A DNA stretch of 64,000 nucleotides from Metallosphaera yellowstonensis MK1 (GTDB lineage: Archaea > Thermoproteota > Thermoprotei_A > Sulfolobales > Sulfolobaceae): contig NZ_JH597761.1 in NCBI RefSeq assembly GCF_000243315.1, positions 769,656-833,655 on the forward strand, in the 5' to 3' direction. The translations under genes and the position numbers were made by a program. The notes beneath the pieces were generated by a model. It was given only the letters and a program-made list of their open reading frames with translations, was not told the origin of the DNA and made no database searches. Shown piece by piece: positions 301-29,125 of this stretch; positions within the stretch are counted from its first letter, which is position 1; every line of letters starts with the position of its first letter.

Positions 301-789
301 ATGTGATCAAATATATTCAGTAATTCCTTCATTGAATAAGTCTAAACCGAGAGATATATTACAATTTGCAAAGGAGCCCTTAATCACCCAGTCTACCACA
401 GCGCCCAACTACTATGCTCTCAAACTGCCTAAAATCCTACTAACCTCTGCTTTAGGACCTACTAAACTGCAATTCTGGGCCTGCTAAGCTGCTAAACTCT
501 AAACTGGGGGGTGATGAAGGGGAAAAGAAAGCGGGCGAGGGTGGCGGTGAAGTGCTTACTAGTTCTTTATAAAGAGAATATATATTGTTATTTTGTATTT
601 CACGTACAAAAAAGTAGTAAAATATAAAATAGTTATCTATTTTAGTGTGAAAGAAAAGATAGTTAGTTAATGTAAAGAAAAAGAAAATAATGGAATAAAA
701 GAACTGTTATAATATTCATATTGTGGTAATAAAAAGGCAAAGATAAAAACAAAAAAAGTTTTTAAATATGTTTTAACAGAAGTAGAAAT
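301..789. other. AT-rich gene-free stretch
   Basis: No credible coding frame is seen on either strand. The stretch 400-500 contains short imperfect repeats of CTACTAA and CTGCTAA. A GGTGATGA (506-513) resembles a C box but has no D box behind it. From about 677 it carries the block that is repeated at 1223-1268 and then a TATA-like TTTTTAAATATG (about 761-772) ahead of the RNA candidate at 790. Confidence 0.5.
677..720 (+). repeat. Upstream block shared by the two small-RNA candidates, copy 1
   Basis: About 44 bases containing AAAGAAAATAATGGAATA and TGTTATAATATTCA recur at 1223-1268 with only a few differences. In both places the block lies roughly 70-110 bases before a structured C/D-like RNA candidate. 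The two loci therefore look like duplicates of one RNA gene with its upstream region. Confidence 0.6.
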
Positions 790-870
790 GGGGGATGAGG
801 GGATGATGAGTAGGGTCAGAATTGACCTATGATAGGACACCCGGAAGCTGACCTGACCCCCTCATCCCTA
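790..870 (+). ncRNA. Putative box C/D-type small RNA 1 with an 11-bp terminal stem
   Basis: GGGATGAGGGG (792-802) pairs perfectly with CCCCTCATCCC (858-868). Inside this stem a C box ATGATGA (803-809) abuts the 5' strand, and a D box CTGA (853-856) lies one base from the 3' strand; a second CTGA is at 848-851. This is the layout of a kink-turn. A possible D' box TTGA (822-825) and C' box TATGATA (828-834) lie between. A TATA-like TTTTTAAATATG ends about 20-25 bases upstream. The terminal stem is longer than in most archaeal C/D guide RNAs. The guide targets were not determined. Confidence 0.55.
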
Positions 871-1183
871 ATTCATTACTTATCTTTTCAACTATTAAGC
901 TTTTCTTCTCATCCAATTTTGAAAAATCGAGCGAAGAATGAGGTTGGATCCTAACGATGAAGTTTTGTTGTTTGCTACTCTTATTAAGTGAGCTAACGTA
1001 TGCAATAACACGGCATAAGCAAAATCTAGGATTGAAGGAAAAAGAGATTAAGCTTTTTGTTTTAATTTTTTCTCATTAAATTGGGGAGTTAATTCAAAAT
1101 TTATAAAACTTTCTCTAAATATAAAATTTTAGGGCGATGATGAAACGACGTGCTGAGAACATGAGGAACGACTTAGAAGCTGA

Positions 1184-1216
1184 GCCTTGTCAACAGTTTC
1201 CGATAAACCGTGAATT
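1184..1216 (+). repeat. Solo left-end sequence of the second IS607 subfamily
   Basis: The reverse complement contains GGTTTATCGGAAACTGTT. The same block occurs in front of tnpA-like remains or a short element at about 21867, 34992 and 42772, and in diverged form at 51500 and 51840. Here no transposase gene follows it. The duplicated block upstream of RNA candidate 2 begins within 10 bases, so an IS end sits at the junction of the duplication. Confidence 0.6.
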
Positions 1217-1222
1217 ATGCGT

Positions 1223-1268
1223 AAAAAAAAGAAAATAATGAATAAAAGAAATGTTATAATATTCACAT
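1223..1268 (+). repeat. Upstream block shared by the two small-RNA candidates, copy 2
   Basis: This is the second copy of the block at 677-720 (GAAAATAATG, AATAAAAGAA, TGTTATAATATTCA). A TATA-like GATTAAAACATC near 1302-1313 lies about 25-35 bases before the structured RNA candidate starting near 1337. Confidence 0.6.
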
Positions 1269-1336
1269 AAAGATAATAAATGTGCTGGAAGAAGAAACTA
1301 AAAGATTAAAACATCTGTTTAACTACACATCTAAAT

Positions 1337-1418
1337 AGGGGGCACCCCTGGAGGTGATGACGGGAGGCATACCGATAGGTGACGAATGGCTTGGAACCTG
1401 ATCCCCGCCCGCCCCCCA
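1337..1418 (+). ncRNA. Putative box C/D-type small RNA 2
   Basis: The order and spacing of boxes fit an archaeal C/D guide RNA closely. The C box is GTGATGA (1354-1360), followed after 11 bases by a D'-like CCGA (1372-1375). A C' box GTGACGA (1379-1385) follows, and 12 bases later a D box CTGA (1398-1401). A short GGA/TCC stem flanks the C and D boxes, and an outer GGGGGC (1338-1343) can pair with GCCCCC (1411-1416). A T-run (about 1421-1426) follows. In such RNAs the bases just upstream of D and D' guide 2'-O-methylation of rRNA or tRNA; targets were not searched. Confidence 0.65.
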
Positions 1419-10672: not shown

Positions 10673-11959
10673 TTGTCAAAGGACGACGTACTCGAGGCGC
10701 TGAAGTCTGGGAGAATAGATTACGTGAGGGTGGAGTTCATAGATCTCTTGGGGAACGTCAGGGGCAGATCTTTGAGGAGGGCAGAGTTCGAGAAGGTCAT
10801 GGGTCAGGATATGGGGGTGCCCTACGCCGAGTCCCTCGTGTTATTAGATTACTTGGACAGACCCATCAAGTCCAAGTATGAGGACATAATAGCCATGCCA
10901 GATCCACAGTCCTTCATTATTATTCCTTACTTGGAGAGGACGGCCAGGGTTCTCTCCTACCTCTTCTCCCCAGACGGTACGCCTTCGAAGTTCTGTACTA
11001 GGGGGATACTTAGGAGCGCCGTACAGAAGCTTGAGGAGATGGGTTTGGAGTTGGAGATCTCCTTCGAACCGACCTTCTATCTATTGAAAAAGGATCAAAA
11101 GGGCATGGTTCCATCGGATTTCGGCAAGGCCTTCTCACCAGAGGGACTCATGGAGGAACAGGGCTTCCTGAAGGACGTCATAAAGTACTTGGAATTGGTG
11201 GGGGTTCAGGTCGAGATGATAAATAAGCACTACGGTCCGGGGCAGTACGAGATCACCTTCTCGGCAAGGGACGCCATATCATCTGCAGACTCGTTGATAA
11301 CAGCCAGGGAGATTATAAGGGATGTGGCCAAAATCTACAGTCAAGTAGCTACATTCATGCCTAAGCCCTTCTCTGACCTCCCGGGGAGTAGCATGGACAT
11401 CTACATCAAGATAAAGAGAAAGGACGGTTCAGACGCGATGTTAGATCCCAACGATCCTAAGGGGATAGGTATCAGCAGGGTCGCCTACAGTTTCTTCGGT
11501 GGTATACTAGAACACATAGGGAGCATAATAGCCATAGCCTCTCCAACCATTAACTCGTACAAGAGGTTCAGGGAGGTAATAACTCCGAACCTTGGGGGAA
11601 TAGGTCAAGAGAGGCACTTCATAATCAGGATCCCGAGCAACTTTAGGGAGTCGAAATCCCTGGAGTTTAGGCTGGCAGACCCCCTAGCCAACTCCTACCT
11701 ACTGCTAGCCTCCCTCATATTCTCAGGGATAGAGGGAATGGAGAAGGGGGCAGATGTGGAGGTCAACGAGGTGGTCACCACCATACCCAAGGACATGAGA
11801 GAGGCGTTAAACGTGTTGGATGGAGACTCATCCCTGAAGTTCTCTCTTGGAACTGAGCTCATATCCTCGTTCCTCGAACTCAAGAAGAGGGAACTAGAGA
11901 GTTACGAAAACTATGTCTCTGAGTGGGAGAGGGAAGCTTACCTTAAGGCAGGATGGTAA
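10673..11959 (+). CDS. Glutamine synthetase-like protein with altered active site
   Basis: The 428-aa protein aligns along its length with glutamine synthetase, with the beta-grasp start ([17 protein letters not shown]), KYGPGQ-like [32 protein letters not shown] and [14 protein letters not shown]. Several metal or substrate residues are changed: EPEFF reads EPTFY, HE before GPGQ reads HY, GSGMHxH reads GSSMDIY, and the NRS segment is QERHF. It may be a GlnA-like ligase for another amine or a non-catalytic paralogue. The TTG start is preceded by GAGGAG. It is followed with slight overlap by a dehydrogenase. Confidence 0.85.
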
Positions 11960-20879: not shown

Positions 20880-21384
20880 GAACTCCCTCGTCTCCTTGAA
20901 CCAAACATATTTCCTTAACATTTCTTATTATTTTTCTGGCTCCTGTGTCTCCCTCTAGTTTCCATATCTCTGGGAAAAGCTTCTTGGAAAGGATTACTGG
21001 GTTTCCCAACTTTCCCTCATACGTCGGCACCACTGCCAGACAGGAGGAGGAATAGGCCTCCAGCATTCTCTTGACAACTCCCTCACTCACCAAAGGCATG
21101 TCCCCCAAGGCTACTAGAATCCCGTCCATATCTTGAAAGAACCTGACTCCAAGCTTGAGAGATGTGGACATCCCATTGGCCCAATTTGGGTTGTATATCA
21201 CGACCTCACTTTTGAGGACTGGAAACAACTCAATGGCATACCTACCGACTACTACCACTCTAGGCCTAGGTAGAGCAGATATGGCCCACTCTATTATGGT
21301 CTTTCCACCTACAGTCATCAATAGCTTATTTCGGCCGAATCTTTTACCTTCTCCAGCTGCTAAAACCACCGTACCTACGTCCAT
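20824..21384 (-). CDS. mocA: MocA/MobA-like nucleotidyltransferase for molybdenum cofactor
   Basis: The protein starts at an internal ATG ([20 protein letters not shown]), where LAAGxGxRFGxxK is the nucleotide-binding signature of the family. [20 protein letters not shown] and [16 protein letters not shown] follow, both typical of MocA. MocA attaches CMP to the molybdenum cofactor used by xanthine-oxidase-type enzymes, which suits its place next to two subunits of such an enzyme. An upstream in-frame ATG at 21423 would add 13 residues. The gene lies tail to tail with the Fe-S subunit gene. Confidence 0.85.
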
Positions 21385-21424
21385 TGACGAACTGTACTCT
21401 CCATTTGACACTGGTGAACTCACC

Positions 21425-21890
21425 CCTCAAGACGGGGCTTCCTGCTTCATGGCACCATCTTGCCTGAGTAGTATAAGGGCAAGTTATAACAACTTTCGAC
21501 ACTTCGTTGTTTACTATCATCCTCAGTAACTTGAGGAACCCCCTCCTCTTCACGTTCAATGAAGGTCCCACGTCCGTGATGACCTGCTCGTGGTCCTTAA
21601 CGTTCTCCTCGAGGTACTTAACTTGGTTTGCCAAGTCGTCCTTTCGCGATGACACTCCAGCATATAATACCACTTTCCTCTTCCTCACAATTCCCATTAA
21701 TTTTTCCACGTCCTCCCTGAACCTCCACTTCCCGCTCTGTAGTACTGGTCTTATTTATCCCTTCTTAACATATTCCCTAAGTGTCGTATAGGATATTCAT
21801 AAGCGTTGGCAGACTTCCTTAGGTTTCAGCATTGTATAAAAGCTTATGATGAAATAATATAAACTTTACGGCTTATCGGAAACTGTTGAC
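21425..21890 (-). pseudogene. tnpA: Truncated relic of an IS607 element (left end and part of tnpA)
   Basis: Reading leftward from the left-end motif (GGCTTATCGGAAACTGTT near 21867) there is an ATG followed by LKPKEVCQR, then stops and a frameshift. EKLMGIVRKRKVVLYAGVSS follows, where the catalytic Ser motif is degraded (YAGVSS instead of YARVSS). VNNEVSKVVIT is the last recognisable piece at about 21470. Everything after that, including tnpB, is missing. It belongs to the same subfamily as 40885-42810. Confidence 0.75.
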
Positions 21891-25835: not shown

Positions 25836-26602
25836 TTCTCCCTTGACGGGAATTTTCCTTCCCTGACTTCACTCGTGTATTTCCTTACGGCATCCCTTAT
25901 CTCTGTCTTGAGATCTAAGTATTTCTTGGCGAAGTAGGGTGAGATGTCCCCTAGGCCTAGTAGGTCGTGCAATACCAGGACCTGTCCGTCACAGTGAGGC
26001 CCAGCACCTATACATATGGTCGGTACGGACACCTCTTCTGTCACCCTTTTTGCGATCTCTGCGTAGACGTTCTCTATGACAATGGAGAATACGCCCGCCT
26101 CCTCGAGTGCCATTGCGTCAGCTAGGATTTTCTCTTCGTCTTTGATCAACCTATATCCCCCCAGGGCCAGATACCTCTGAGGGGTCAGGCCTATGTGTCC
26201 CATGACCGGTATGCCTGCCCTCACAATGCTTTTGACCCTCTCGAACATCTCTACTCCTCCCTCTAGCTTCACTGCGTCAGCCCCCTCCCTTACCAGTTCT
26301 CCGGCGTTTCTCACTGCTGTCTCGTTGGAGAGTTCGTAGCTCATGAAGGGCATATCTACCACGATCATCTGTCTTGGATTAGCTCTCACTACAGCCCTGG
26401 TATGATGAACCATATGATCCATGGTGACCTGGAGAGTTGAGGGGAAACCCAGAACGTTCATCCCTAGGGAATCTCCCACTAGGAACATATCGAGATCTGT
26501 TTCAGAAAGTATCCTGGCCATGGAGTAGTCGTATACCGTCAGCATTGTTATTTTCTGTCTCCCCTTCATCTTCACGATGTCCCTTACCGTCATCCTTTGC
26601 AT
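25814..26602 (-). CDS. panB: 3-methyl-2-oxobutanoate hydroxymethyltransferase
   Basis: The 262-aa protein has all PanB landmarks: [65 protein letters not shown] and [19 protein letters not shown]. It makes ketopantoate, the precursor of pantoate, for CoA synthesis. Its start lies inside the 3' end of the upstream gene: about 101 bases of panB are also read in another frame. A second ATG, three codons later, gives the more usual N-terminus [11 protein letters not shown]. Confidence 0.97.
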
Positions 26603-27164
26603 TTCCCATCGTAGCTATCTTTGTGGCCAGCGTTAAAATCCTCATCACCTTGGTAACTATGTATTGAGTCTCCTCATATTGAACGGCCCTTCGGTGGAGC
26701 TCAACTAGGAGAGGGAGGTCGCTGAACGCGATCTTCCTGAAGAGCATTCTGTCAGCCTCTGTCCTCAGACCTCTCCCTGCTAGAAAACGTAGTTTTCTCT
26801 CCAGCTCGTCTAAGTTCAGGGAGTGAGCCTGAGCCCTAATTAGCATGACCTCGGGTTCCTCCTCCTTTCCTAAGGTTTCCTTAACTGCCTCCAGGTCAAC
26901 GAACTTCCACCAATGTTGATTTGAGGACTTGTACGAGGTCTCGATCACCGCGTAGTCCTTTTCAAGCGACCTCAGGATCATCTTCGGATCGAAATTGTAA
27001 CCCCTCTCTCTCAACCTCTCCACCAGCGTCTTGTAGTCGAAGTCCCCTACTTCTCCCCTCCCCTTCTCCTCAGTTATTGAGAGAGCTACCTCCAACACTA
27101 CCTTAGCCTTCTCGTACTTCAGAAGGGCCTCCGTTACTCTGTCCCTAACTCCCCCTATCAACAC
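26502..27164 (-). CDS. Hypothetical winged-helix-like protein
   Basis: This is a 220-aa protein. Residues 1-75 are helical with [20 protein letters not shown] and [16 protein letters not shown], which looks like a DNA-binding winged-helix pattern; the middle ([15 protein letters not shown]) is probably coiled. The last 33 residues ([19 protein letters not shown] and on) are very polar and are read from DNA that also encodes the first 34 codons of PanB. This suggests that the original stop was lost or that the overlap is old. The function is not recognised. Confidence 0.65.
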
Positions 27165-27954: not shown

Positions 27955-29125
27955 CCTCGTGAGAAAGGAGTGGTTAGATCTGAAGAGGGACAGAAGACTC
28001 CTCCTGACTTCAATCCTCTTACCCATGCTCCTGCTCCCCTTGGTGGGAGCCATAATTTACGCATCAGTGGCCTCACAACCACCCATAGTGCTGTTGATAA
28101 ACAACGATACTGCCAACATCCCTTACGTTAACTTCCTCGAAAAATACGCTGAGCAACAGGGAGCCAAGGTGTACCTAAACAACGGTAGTTCCGTAGTTCC
28201 GGACGTAGAGGTCATCTTCCCCTCAGGATTTGCACAGAACATCTCCTCCATGAACGGCACAGCCTATGTGGAGGAAATAACGTTAGTCTCTTCACAGAGC
28301 GATGCTGTGAACATCGTTAACGACGGTCTCTATAAGCTAGCGGTCAACGTTTCCTTGACTAGGATATCCACTTTGTCCCGTGAGGCTCACACTCCTGTAA
28401 ATCCTGAGGCCGTACGAGATCCCCTAGTATTGAAGCTTGGATACATAAGCCCAGAGAAGAGACCAACTACAGGATCTGTGGAGAGACTGGGCCAGTTGAC
28501 CAGAGTGGTCTCCCTTATTCTCTTCCCAGCAGCAACACCTGTAATATTTTTCCTGACCGACGGTATCCTGGGAGAGAAGGAGAGAAAGACGCTCGAGGCA
28601 CTACTGGCTTCGCCTGTTTCGCCCTTTGAACTGGTCATATCCAAGCTAGTGATAGCCATGATGTTGGGCATCATATCTTCGCTAGGAGATCTCCTGGGCT
28701 TAGTTGCGTTCTCCTTCTTTGCTCCACTCCTTGTCGGGAACATAGGAGAACTGAGCTTATCCCTGGCGGGAATGGTCTCAATTGCCTACCTCCTCATGAT
28801 CCTCCTAACTGGATCGATAAGTCTACTACTCCTTGTGCTCATGGGCGGATCACAGAGGAACGCGCAGCTCATCAATTTCCTGGTCACTGGGTTTGGTATG
28901 TTAGCTTCGTTCTCAGCACTGATTTTGAATTTTGGCTCACTTGGGTTCCCCTTGGTCCTAGTTTACTTCATTCCCTACGTACAAATAGTAGCGGGGCTTT
29001 TGGACTTCGTGTTCGGTCTTGGCACTCAGAGCCTGATCCTCCTCTTATCGACATTTCTGGTATCTGTTCTGCTAATTTACACAACTACTCGCCTCCTCGA
29101 TCCAGAGAGGCTCATCCTGAGGTGA
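27944..29125 (+). CDS. ABC-2 type transporter permease
   Basis: ATG 27944 is preferred over the GTG nine bases earlier because GTGAGG fits as its ribosome binding site. The protein of about 393 aa has one N-terminal membrane segment ([20 protein letters not shown]) and an extracytoplasmic domain of about 150 residues ([18 protein letters not shown] onward). A block of about five membrane segments follows from about residue 185 ([19 protein letters not shown]). [20 protein letters not shown] is the typical coupling segment of ABC-2 (NatB-like) permeases. It is paired with the ATPase at 27214. Confidence 0.9.

Follow-up and report, generated by a model that had tools for sequence, protein, structure and literature searches.

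Probable box C/D guide RNA genes of pNOB8-like conjugative plasmids in a plasmid remnant of the Metallosphaera yellowstonensis chromosome

Box C/D guide RNAs of archaea are usually treated as host housekeeping genes. The described sRNAs, represented in Rfam by sR1, sR9 and sR28, combine a C box (RUGAUGA), D' and D boxes (CUGA) and a C' box with guides of 9-12 nt, a D'-C' spacer of 3-4 nt and a stem closing by the k-turn, and some are dual guides for rRNA sites about 30 nt apart. The genes described here share these features. They differ in lying at conserved conjugative-plasmid loci with a conserved promoter and T-rich 3' element, in the unusually long, G/C-rich closing stem of one family (family 1), in tRNA guides that aim at position 36, and in that none passes an Rfam gathering threshold. 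Among tRNA-targeting sRNAs, such as sR50 and the pre-tRNA-Trp intron (Cm34 and Um39), the guide likewise pairs with the anticodon loop. The anticodon-arm C/D sites given in the accessible text of a review of archaeal C/D RNAs (PMC7994747) and of an S. acidocaldarius survey are 32, 34, 35 and 39, whereas the register here is 36, the genes are plasmid-borne and an Arg guide fits the spliced tRNA only. In TIGR-Tas systems (compare PMC12045711), too, the guides are box C/D-like RNAs found on mobile elements, but none of the six plasmids searched carries a Tas/Nop protein, the genes form no tandem array, and the predicted targets are host RNAs. A possible analogy, and only that, is with phage tRNAs and tRNA repair against anticodon nucleases, where a mobile element acts at the host anticodon loop; the agents here would guide modification instead of replacing or repairing tRNAs. 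The review states that mobile features of archaeal C/D RNAs "remain to be discovered" (PMC7994747). Box C/D sRNAs as a class are known; a literature search with poor coverage of subscription papers brought up no description of C/D RNAs encoded on plasmids, and prior notice is therefore possible.

The window, a 64-kb stretch comprising positions 769656-833655 of contig 10 of the 2.8-Mb genome of this member of the Sulfolobaceae, matches conjugative plasmids near its start. By blastn, 505-956 aligns with pAH1, 1467-1749 with pBEU9E1 and 1716-2201 with pSOG1/2 and pMGB1; no plasmid match was found in the 7.8 kb directly upstream of the window. Judged by these alignments, the stretch 505-2201 is a decayed fragment of a pNOB8-like conjugative plasmid. 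Three loci within it are very probably box C/D guide RNA genes of such plasmids, left in the chromosome when the plasmid decayed. The features are listed below.

505-2201 (about 1.7 kb), no strand: pNOB8-like conjugative plasmid remnant, from blastn pieces
672-730, plus: upstream block, first copy, shared with pAH1
758-768, plus: TATA-like promoter element of sRNA 1, GTTTTTAAATA (1.40 bits per column, 26 relatives)
791-869, plus: sRNA 1, family 1 (Rfam, family model, alignment, fold, pattern)
791-802/858-869, plus: sRNA 1 closing stem
803-809, plus: sRNA 1 box C, ATGATGA
810-821, plus: sRNA 1 D' guide, 12 nt
822-825, plus: sRNA 1 box D', TTGA
829-835, plus: sRNA 1 box C', ATGATAG
836-847, plus: sRNA 1 D guide, 12 nt
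848-851, plus: sRNA 1 box D, CTGA
898-914, plus: conserved T-rich, terminator-like stretch after sRNA 1, AGCTTTTCTTCTCATCC (alignment)
1077-1092, no strand: variant copy of plasmid repeat TAAACTGGGGAGTTTA, immediately before sRNA 3
1100-1109, plus: TATA-like promoter element of sRNA 3, TTTATAAAAC, kept in pYN01, pBEU9E1, pMGB1 and L016
1131-1188, plus: sRNA 3, family 2 (Rfam sR1, 28.3 bits, E=5.9e-5; plasmid relatives upstream of traG-like genes)
1131-1135/1184-1188, plus: sRNA 3 stem
1137-1143, plus: sRNA 3 box C
1144-1152, plus: sRNA 3 D' guide, 9 nt
1153-1156, plus: sRNA 3 box D'
1161-1167, plus: sRNA 3 box C'
1168-1179, plus: sRNA 3 D guide
1180-1183, plus: sRNA 3 box D
1189-1214, plus: terminal repeat of an IS (left end, IS607-like), directly adjoining sRNA 3
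1221-1277, plus: upstream block, copy 2
1338-1415, plus: sRNA 2, family 1, divergent (family model E=2e-11)
1354-1360, plus: sRNA 2 box C, GTGATGA
1361-1371, plus: sRNA 2 D' guide, 11 nt
1372-1375, plus: sRNA 2 box D', CCGA (weak)
1379-1385, plus: sRNA 2 box C', GTGACGA
1386-1397, plus: sRNA 2 D guide, 12 nt
1398-1401, plus: sRNA 2 box D, CTGA

A strict C-D'-C'-D pattern matched three times in the whole 64 kb (803-851, 1137-1183 and 1354-1401), each time on the plus strand and all within 600 bp, and none of 3,000 dinucleotide shuffles of 640-1480 yielded a match. An earlier note, made from the DNA alone, had described two candidates (here sRNA 1 and sRNA 2) with C and D boxes in proper order; both are among the three matches, and the note had overlooked the third canonical gene, at 1137-1183. 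Guide lengths (D'/D) are 12/12, 11/12 and 9/12 nt and D'-C' spacers 3, 3 and 4 nt for sRNAs 1, 2 and 3, so that the spacing of 11 and 12 given for the second candidate holds. Boxes C, D', C' and D stand in the right order, with consensus sequence, in the three window genes and in 26 aligned relatives. Rfam gave no match in the window at the gathering threshold (best, 29.5 of 36 bits, sR9); below it, archaeal C/D families fell on all three genes (sR9, E=0.0011; sR1, E=5.9e-5; sR1, E=0.01). Because Rfam families are guide-specific, the miss at gathering excludes those families and not the box C/D class.

For the first candidate the helix 791-802/858-869 is present; the note's 11-bp form starting right at the boxes touches D only through a second CTGA at 853-856, whereas the canonical 12-nt spacing uses the CTGA at 848-851. 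A closing stem had been claimed for both candidates; in sRNA 2 one closing arm is G-rich and the other C-rich, the stem is weak and the computed fold does not improve on that of shuffled sequences. The near-identical block upstream of both genes exists (about 672-730 versus 1221-1277); it is, however, plasmid sequence and not the core promoter; it sits some 80-130 nt upstream, and the TATA-like element at 758-768 is nearer. The IS607 left end proposed nearby agrees with the 1189-1214 repeat, which in this and related genomes precedes IS607-type TnpA-like starts (M-L-R/K-P-K-E-V). This repeat had been tried as a conserved part of sRNA 3 (18 genome matches) and was rejected as an IS terminal repeat.

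The remnant shows two further features. A 62-aa ORF lies at 1476-1664 on the minus strand, in a stretch that matches pBEU9E1 11009-11299 with 84% DNA identity; the counterpart region in that plasmid contains a hypothetical protein (11111-11290), and neither Pfam nor NCBIfam gave a match for the window ORF. Two perfect copies of TAAACTCCCCAGTTTA, reportedly a plasmid recombination motif, occur at 1722-1737 and 2085-2100, and the motif also occurs near plasmid sRNA genes.

Family 1 was modelled from 26 members. One model matches both candidates (E=2e-29 and 2e-11), in keeping with the paralogy that had been proposed, although both window genes were among its training sequences. It locates a single copy in each of pAH1, pYN01, pNOB8, pB12E5, pSOG1, pSOG2, pARN4, pHVE14 and pARN3 (E 3e-30 to 3e-15), most of these copies being training members that match by construction; pKEF9, from outside the training set, gives a divergent match that represents a separate subfamily. 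By blast and alignment, sRNA 1 and its surroundings are 91% identical to pAH1 and 93% to pYN01, and the region also aligns in pB12E5, pSOG1/2, pNOB8, pHVE14, pARN3/4 and many chromosomes. Many chromosomal copies adjoin DUF1286, PlrA and/or a plasmid integrase, as the plasmid copies do. The earlier suggestion of a plasmid-derived RNA is supported: nine or more conjugative plasmids have the locus at the same site, where it retains its boxes and promoter. Conservation of the boxes in related strains, the lack of which the note had named as counting against its reading, was found. Two PLSDB plasmids, pMGB1 and pING1, showed no family-1 copy. In a survey of 117 genomes of the order, strong full-length matches were confined to Sulfolobaceae, and the matches outside were weaker; many of them spanned no more than the box region, which is what ordinary C/D RNAs would give. 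Viral contigs and phage records gave no match.

Conservation in the family is concentrated in the scaffold. Boxes C, D', C' and D carry 1.59, 1.50, 1.36 and 1.88 bits per column and the guides 0.54 and 0.46; overall, promoter, boxes and stem arms range over 1.2-1.9 bits against about 0.5 for guides. The stem arms vary yet stay complementary (GGGGAAAGGGG/CCCCTTTCCCC, GGGAGTGGCGGG/CCCGCCACTCCC, GGGAGCGGGG/CCCCGCTCCC), and most members form a closing helix of 8-17 bp; the closing stem does not exceed shuffles in sRNA 2, sRNA 3, pARN4 and pSOG1. Two plasmid genes were seen alongside. In pBEU9E1 (L236), a RelE/ParE-like toxin gene (28726-29037) occupies the family-1 site, flanked by DUF1286 and the conserved T-rich 3' element. 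A DUF1874-family gene lies at 21001-21435 of pAH1 (L241), a plasmid that bears two C/D sRNAs; the DUF1874 family is associated with AcrIII-1 ring nucleases.

Families 2 and 3 have unrelated scaffolds and the same architecture. Family 2, with a TATA-like element of its own, adjoins traG-like genes in pYN01, pAH1, pBEU9E1 and relatives. The pMGB1 copy (L044, upstream of 9662) has lost D' and C' by an internal deletion and retains C, D and the D guide. Family 3 was found in pKEF9, in integrated plasmids and in two copies on contig 19 of the M. yellowstonensis genome, and adjoins a divergent gene for a 75-aa protein (88-89% identity; pKEF9 26619-26846). The contig 19 copies, at about 729.3 kb (L242) and 752.3 kb (L243), are near-identical, each stands beside the 75-aa gene, and no recognised plasmid context surrounds them; sRNA and gene together are possibly a small mobile unit. 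The family-3 sRNA and the 75-aa gene are separated by palindrome-like GTACAATATGGTAC and TGTACCACAATGTACC repeats (L244, L246, L247 and pKEF9 26400-26700), which suggests that the 75-aa protein may regulate the sRNA.

Matching of guides to host RNAs, as the earlier note had proposed, gave a fit of the sRNA 2 D guide to tRNA-Gly(UCC) and of the sRNA 1 D' guide to 23S rRNA, both of the same genome. Guides were scanned against in-silico-spliced mature tRNAs of M. yellowstonensis and one related genome (G015). Fourteen of 79 distinct guides formed a duplex of at least 7 nt with the fifth base before the box facing tRNA position 36, compared with a mean of 0.46 and a maximum of 3 for shuffled guides (300 shuffles). 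A conservative count left aside guides that a pattern had found or that 16S rRNA explains, and merged near-identical guides into 45 clusters; four clusters remained at position 36, against a shuffle mean of 0.285, and this was reached in none of 2,000 shuffles. The tRNA-targeting guides therefore come from few lineages. tRNA-Thr(CGU) was rejected as a target of family-3 D guides (7 nt); these fit the 16S 1500 region better and were for that reason left out of the conservative count.

The strongest position-36 matches are to tRNA-Gly(UCC) (sRNA 2, pHVE14 and L034), to tRNA-Gly(CCC) (L019), to tRNA-Val(CAC) (L127) and to mature tRNA-Arg(UCU) (L120). The sRNA 2 D guide forms 10 bp with loop and stem of the anticodon arm in its own genome's tRNA-Gly(UCC), one more than with the Saccharolobus version, while the pHVE14 guide fits the Saccharolobus tRNA-Gly-UCC stem and the L127 guide matches 11 nt of its own genome's tRNA-Val-CAC. 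In all three comparable cases the stem half of the guide tracks the tRNA version of the host or of a host's relative. The sRNA 3 D guide, a weaker prediction, forms 8 bp with the anticodon loop of mature tRNA-Arg(UCU); the L120 guide spans the splice junction, and the Arg match exists only in the spliced tRNA, so that a scan of unspliced genes misses it. Single-base guide differences correspond to different anticodons: GGCTTGGAA (UCC), GGCTTGGGA (CCC) and GGCTTAGAA (mature UCU, at the splice junction). The pattern GGCTTRGRANCTGA, guide plus box D, matched 14 times in 31 genomes, and its reversed control once. Matches with the look of a C/D RNA resemble the described families; the rest show no C/D structure. 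The searched text of the S. acidocaldarius tRNA survey makes no mention of methylation at position 36; the predicted product would accordingly be unprecedented, or it does not form.

For rRNA, relatives' sequences were scanned, the 16S and 23S genes of this genome being largely masked. The group A D' guide (sRNA 1, pYN01, pAH1 and L015) pairs with 23S CUCUGACCCU, with 9 bp for sRNA 1, and this target is present in the unmasked part of the 23S gene of the same genome. By comparison with E. coli, CUCUGACCCU presumably belongs to helix 69; E. coli numbering of rRNA sites, including 16S 1400/1500, is likewise our assumption. Both L015 guides fit 23S sites about 30 nt apart (0 of 400 shuffles), both L018b guides fit 16S sites within about 30 nt (3/400), and the guides of pKEF9 match CCCGUCGCUCC over 11 nt as well as UCGUAAC, close to the 3' end of 16S in the decoding region (7/400). 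The joint 23S test is not significant for sRNA 1 alone (50/400), and its pairing is supported because its relative L015 is significant. Several of the predicted sites would be part of the decoding apparatus: the anticodon, helix 69 and 16S 1400/1500. This theme is a lead only, since the 16S sites of group B lie elsewhere and many guides, including the sRNA 1 D guide, have no convincing target.

That the window copies are dead relics of genuine plasmid C/D sRNAs is a serious possibility, if a somewhat doubtful one. The flanking plasmid genes have been lost, an IS end abuts sRNA 3, the sRNA 2 D' box and the length of the sRNA 3 D' guide are deviant and the sRNA 2 stem is weak. Nevertheless, the boxes, promoter and stem of sRNA 1 are nearly identical to those of pAH1 and pYN01, sRNA 2 keeps C, C' and D together with its 10-nt tRNA-Gly(UCC) match, and sRNA 3 keeps four boxes and a promoter. 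It is improbable that the RNAs act as antisense blockers or chaperones of tRNA and rRNA, methylation being incidental: the tRNA guides do extend, over 10-11 nt, across the entire anticodon loop and into the 3' half of its stem and would occlude decoding, but the box spacing is that of catalytic guides and the N+5 rule yields one fixed tRNA position.

The conserved block might instead be a plasmid DNA element, such as a replication or transfer origin, with an inverted repeat that merely looks C/D-like. It is intergenic and has a strong inverted repeat, and a putative plasmid origin with repeats is placed in an ORF-free region in published plasmid work (PMC4390865). This reading is nonetheless very improbable, as it leaves unexplained why boxes stay conserved around 11-12-nt slots whose guides vary, the tRNA-matching guides in one register and the unrelated family 2 and 3 scaffolds with the same architecture. 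The sRNA block was separately considered as the published origin and rejected, since in pAH1 the motif TCTATACCCCC is found about 1.4 kb from it. The mobile setting, C/D boxes and variable guides bring to mind TIGR-Tas-like guides that target DNA, but these can hardly be involved: none of six plasmids encodes a Nop-domain protein, with archaeal controls positive, the genes are isolated and form no tandem array, and the guides match host tRNA and rRNA.

Guide RNA genes of conjugative plasmids thus remain the preferred reading, on the sequence-level evidence of canonical boxes and spacing, a closing stem in most members and a conserved promoter, leader and T-rich stretch. Each gene would be transcribed alone, and by established C/D biology its RNA would bind host L7Ae, Nop5 and fibrillarin and direct 2'-O-methylation to whichever target nucleotide pairs with the guide base five positions before box D or D'. 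Fibrillarin, the machinery protein searched, is present in the host genome (E=8.7e-101). Predicted targets are position 36 of tRNA-Gly-UCC for sRNA 2 and, less firmly, of tRNA-Arg-UCU for sRNA 3, 23S helix 69 for the sRNA 1 D' guide and 16S for other members. The scaffold would be retained while point changes re-aim the guides, and the plasmid might gain by tuning or shielding host translation. A broader proposal is speculative and rather unlikely as it stands: plasmid guides may rewrite host 2'-O-methylation around the decoding site (anticodon position 36 of tRNAs, helix 69 of 23S and 16S 1400/1500), re-aimed by point mutation, and so shield these RNAs from ribonuclease toxins or anticodon-cleaving defences, or bias translation to the plasmid's advantage. 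If true, this would be an RNA-modification counter-defence encoded by RNA alone.

C/D RNAs appear here as standard cargo of well-studied plasmids (pNOB8, pHVE14, pKEF9, pARN, pSOG and pAH1). The PLSDB tables, in which RNA genes are not listed at all, leave these sRNAs unannotated. Whether mobile elements alter host RNA methylation, and whether 2'-O-methylation occurs at tRNA position 36, are the questions this raises. Since the same genes recur on most of the plasmids checked, with swapped guides that often match tRNA anticodon loops or rRNA, mobile DNA may reprogramme host RNA modification.
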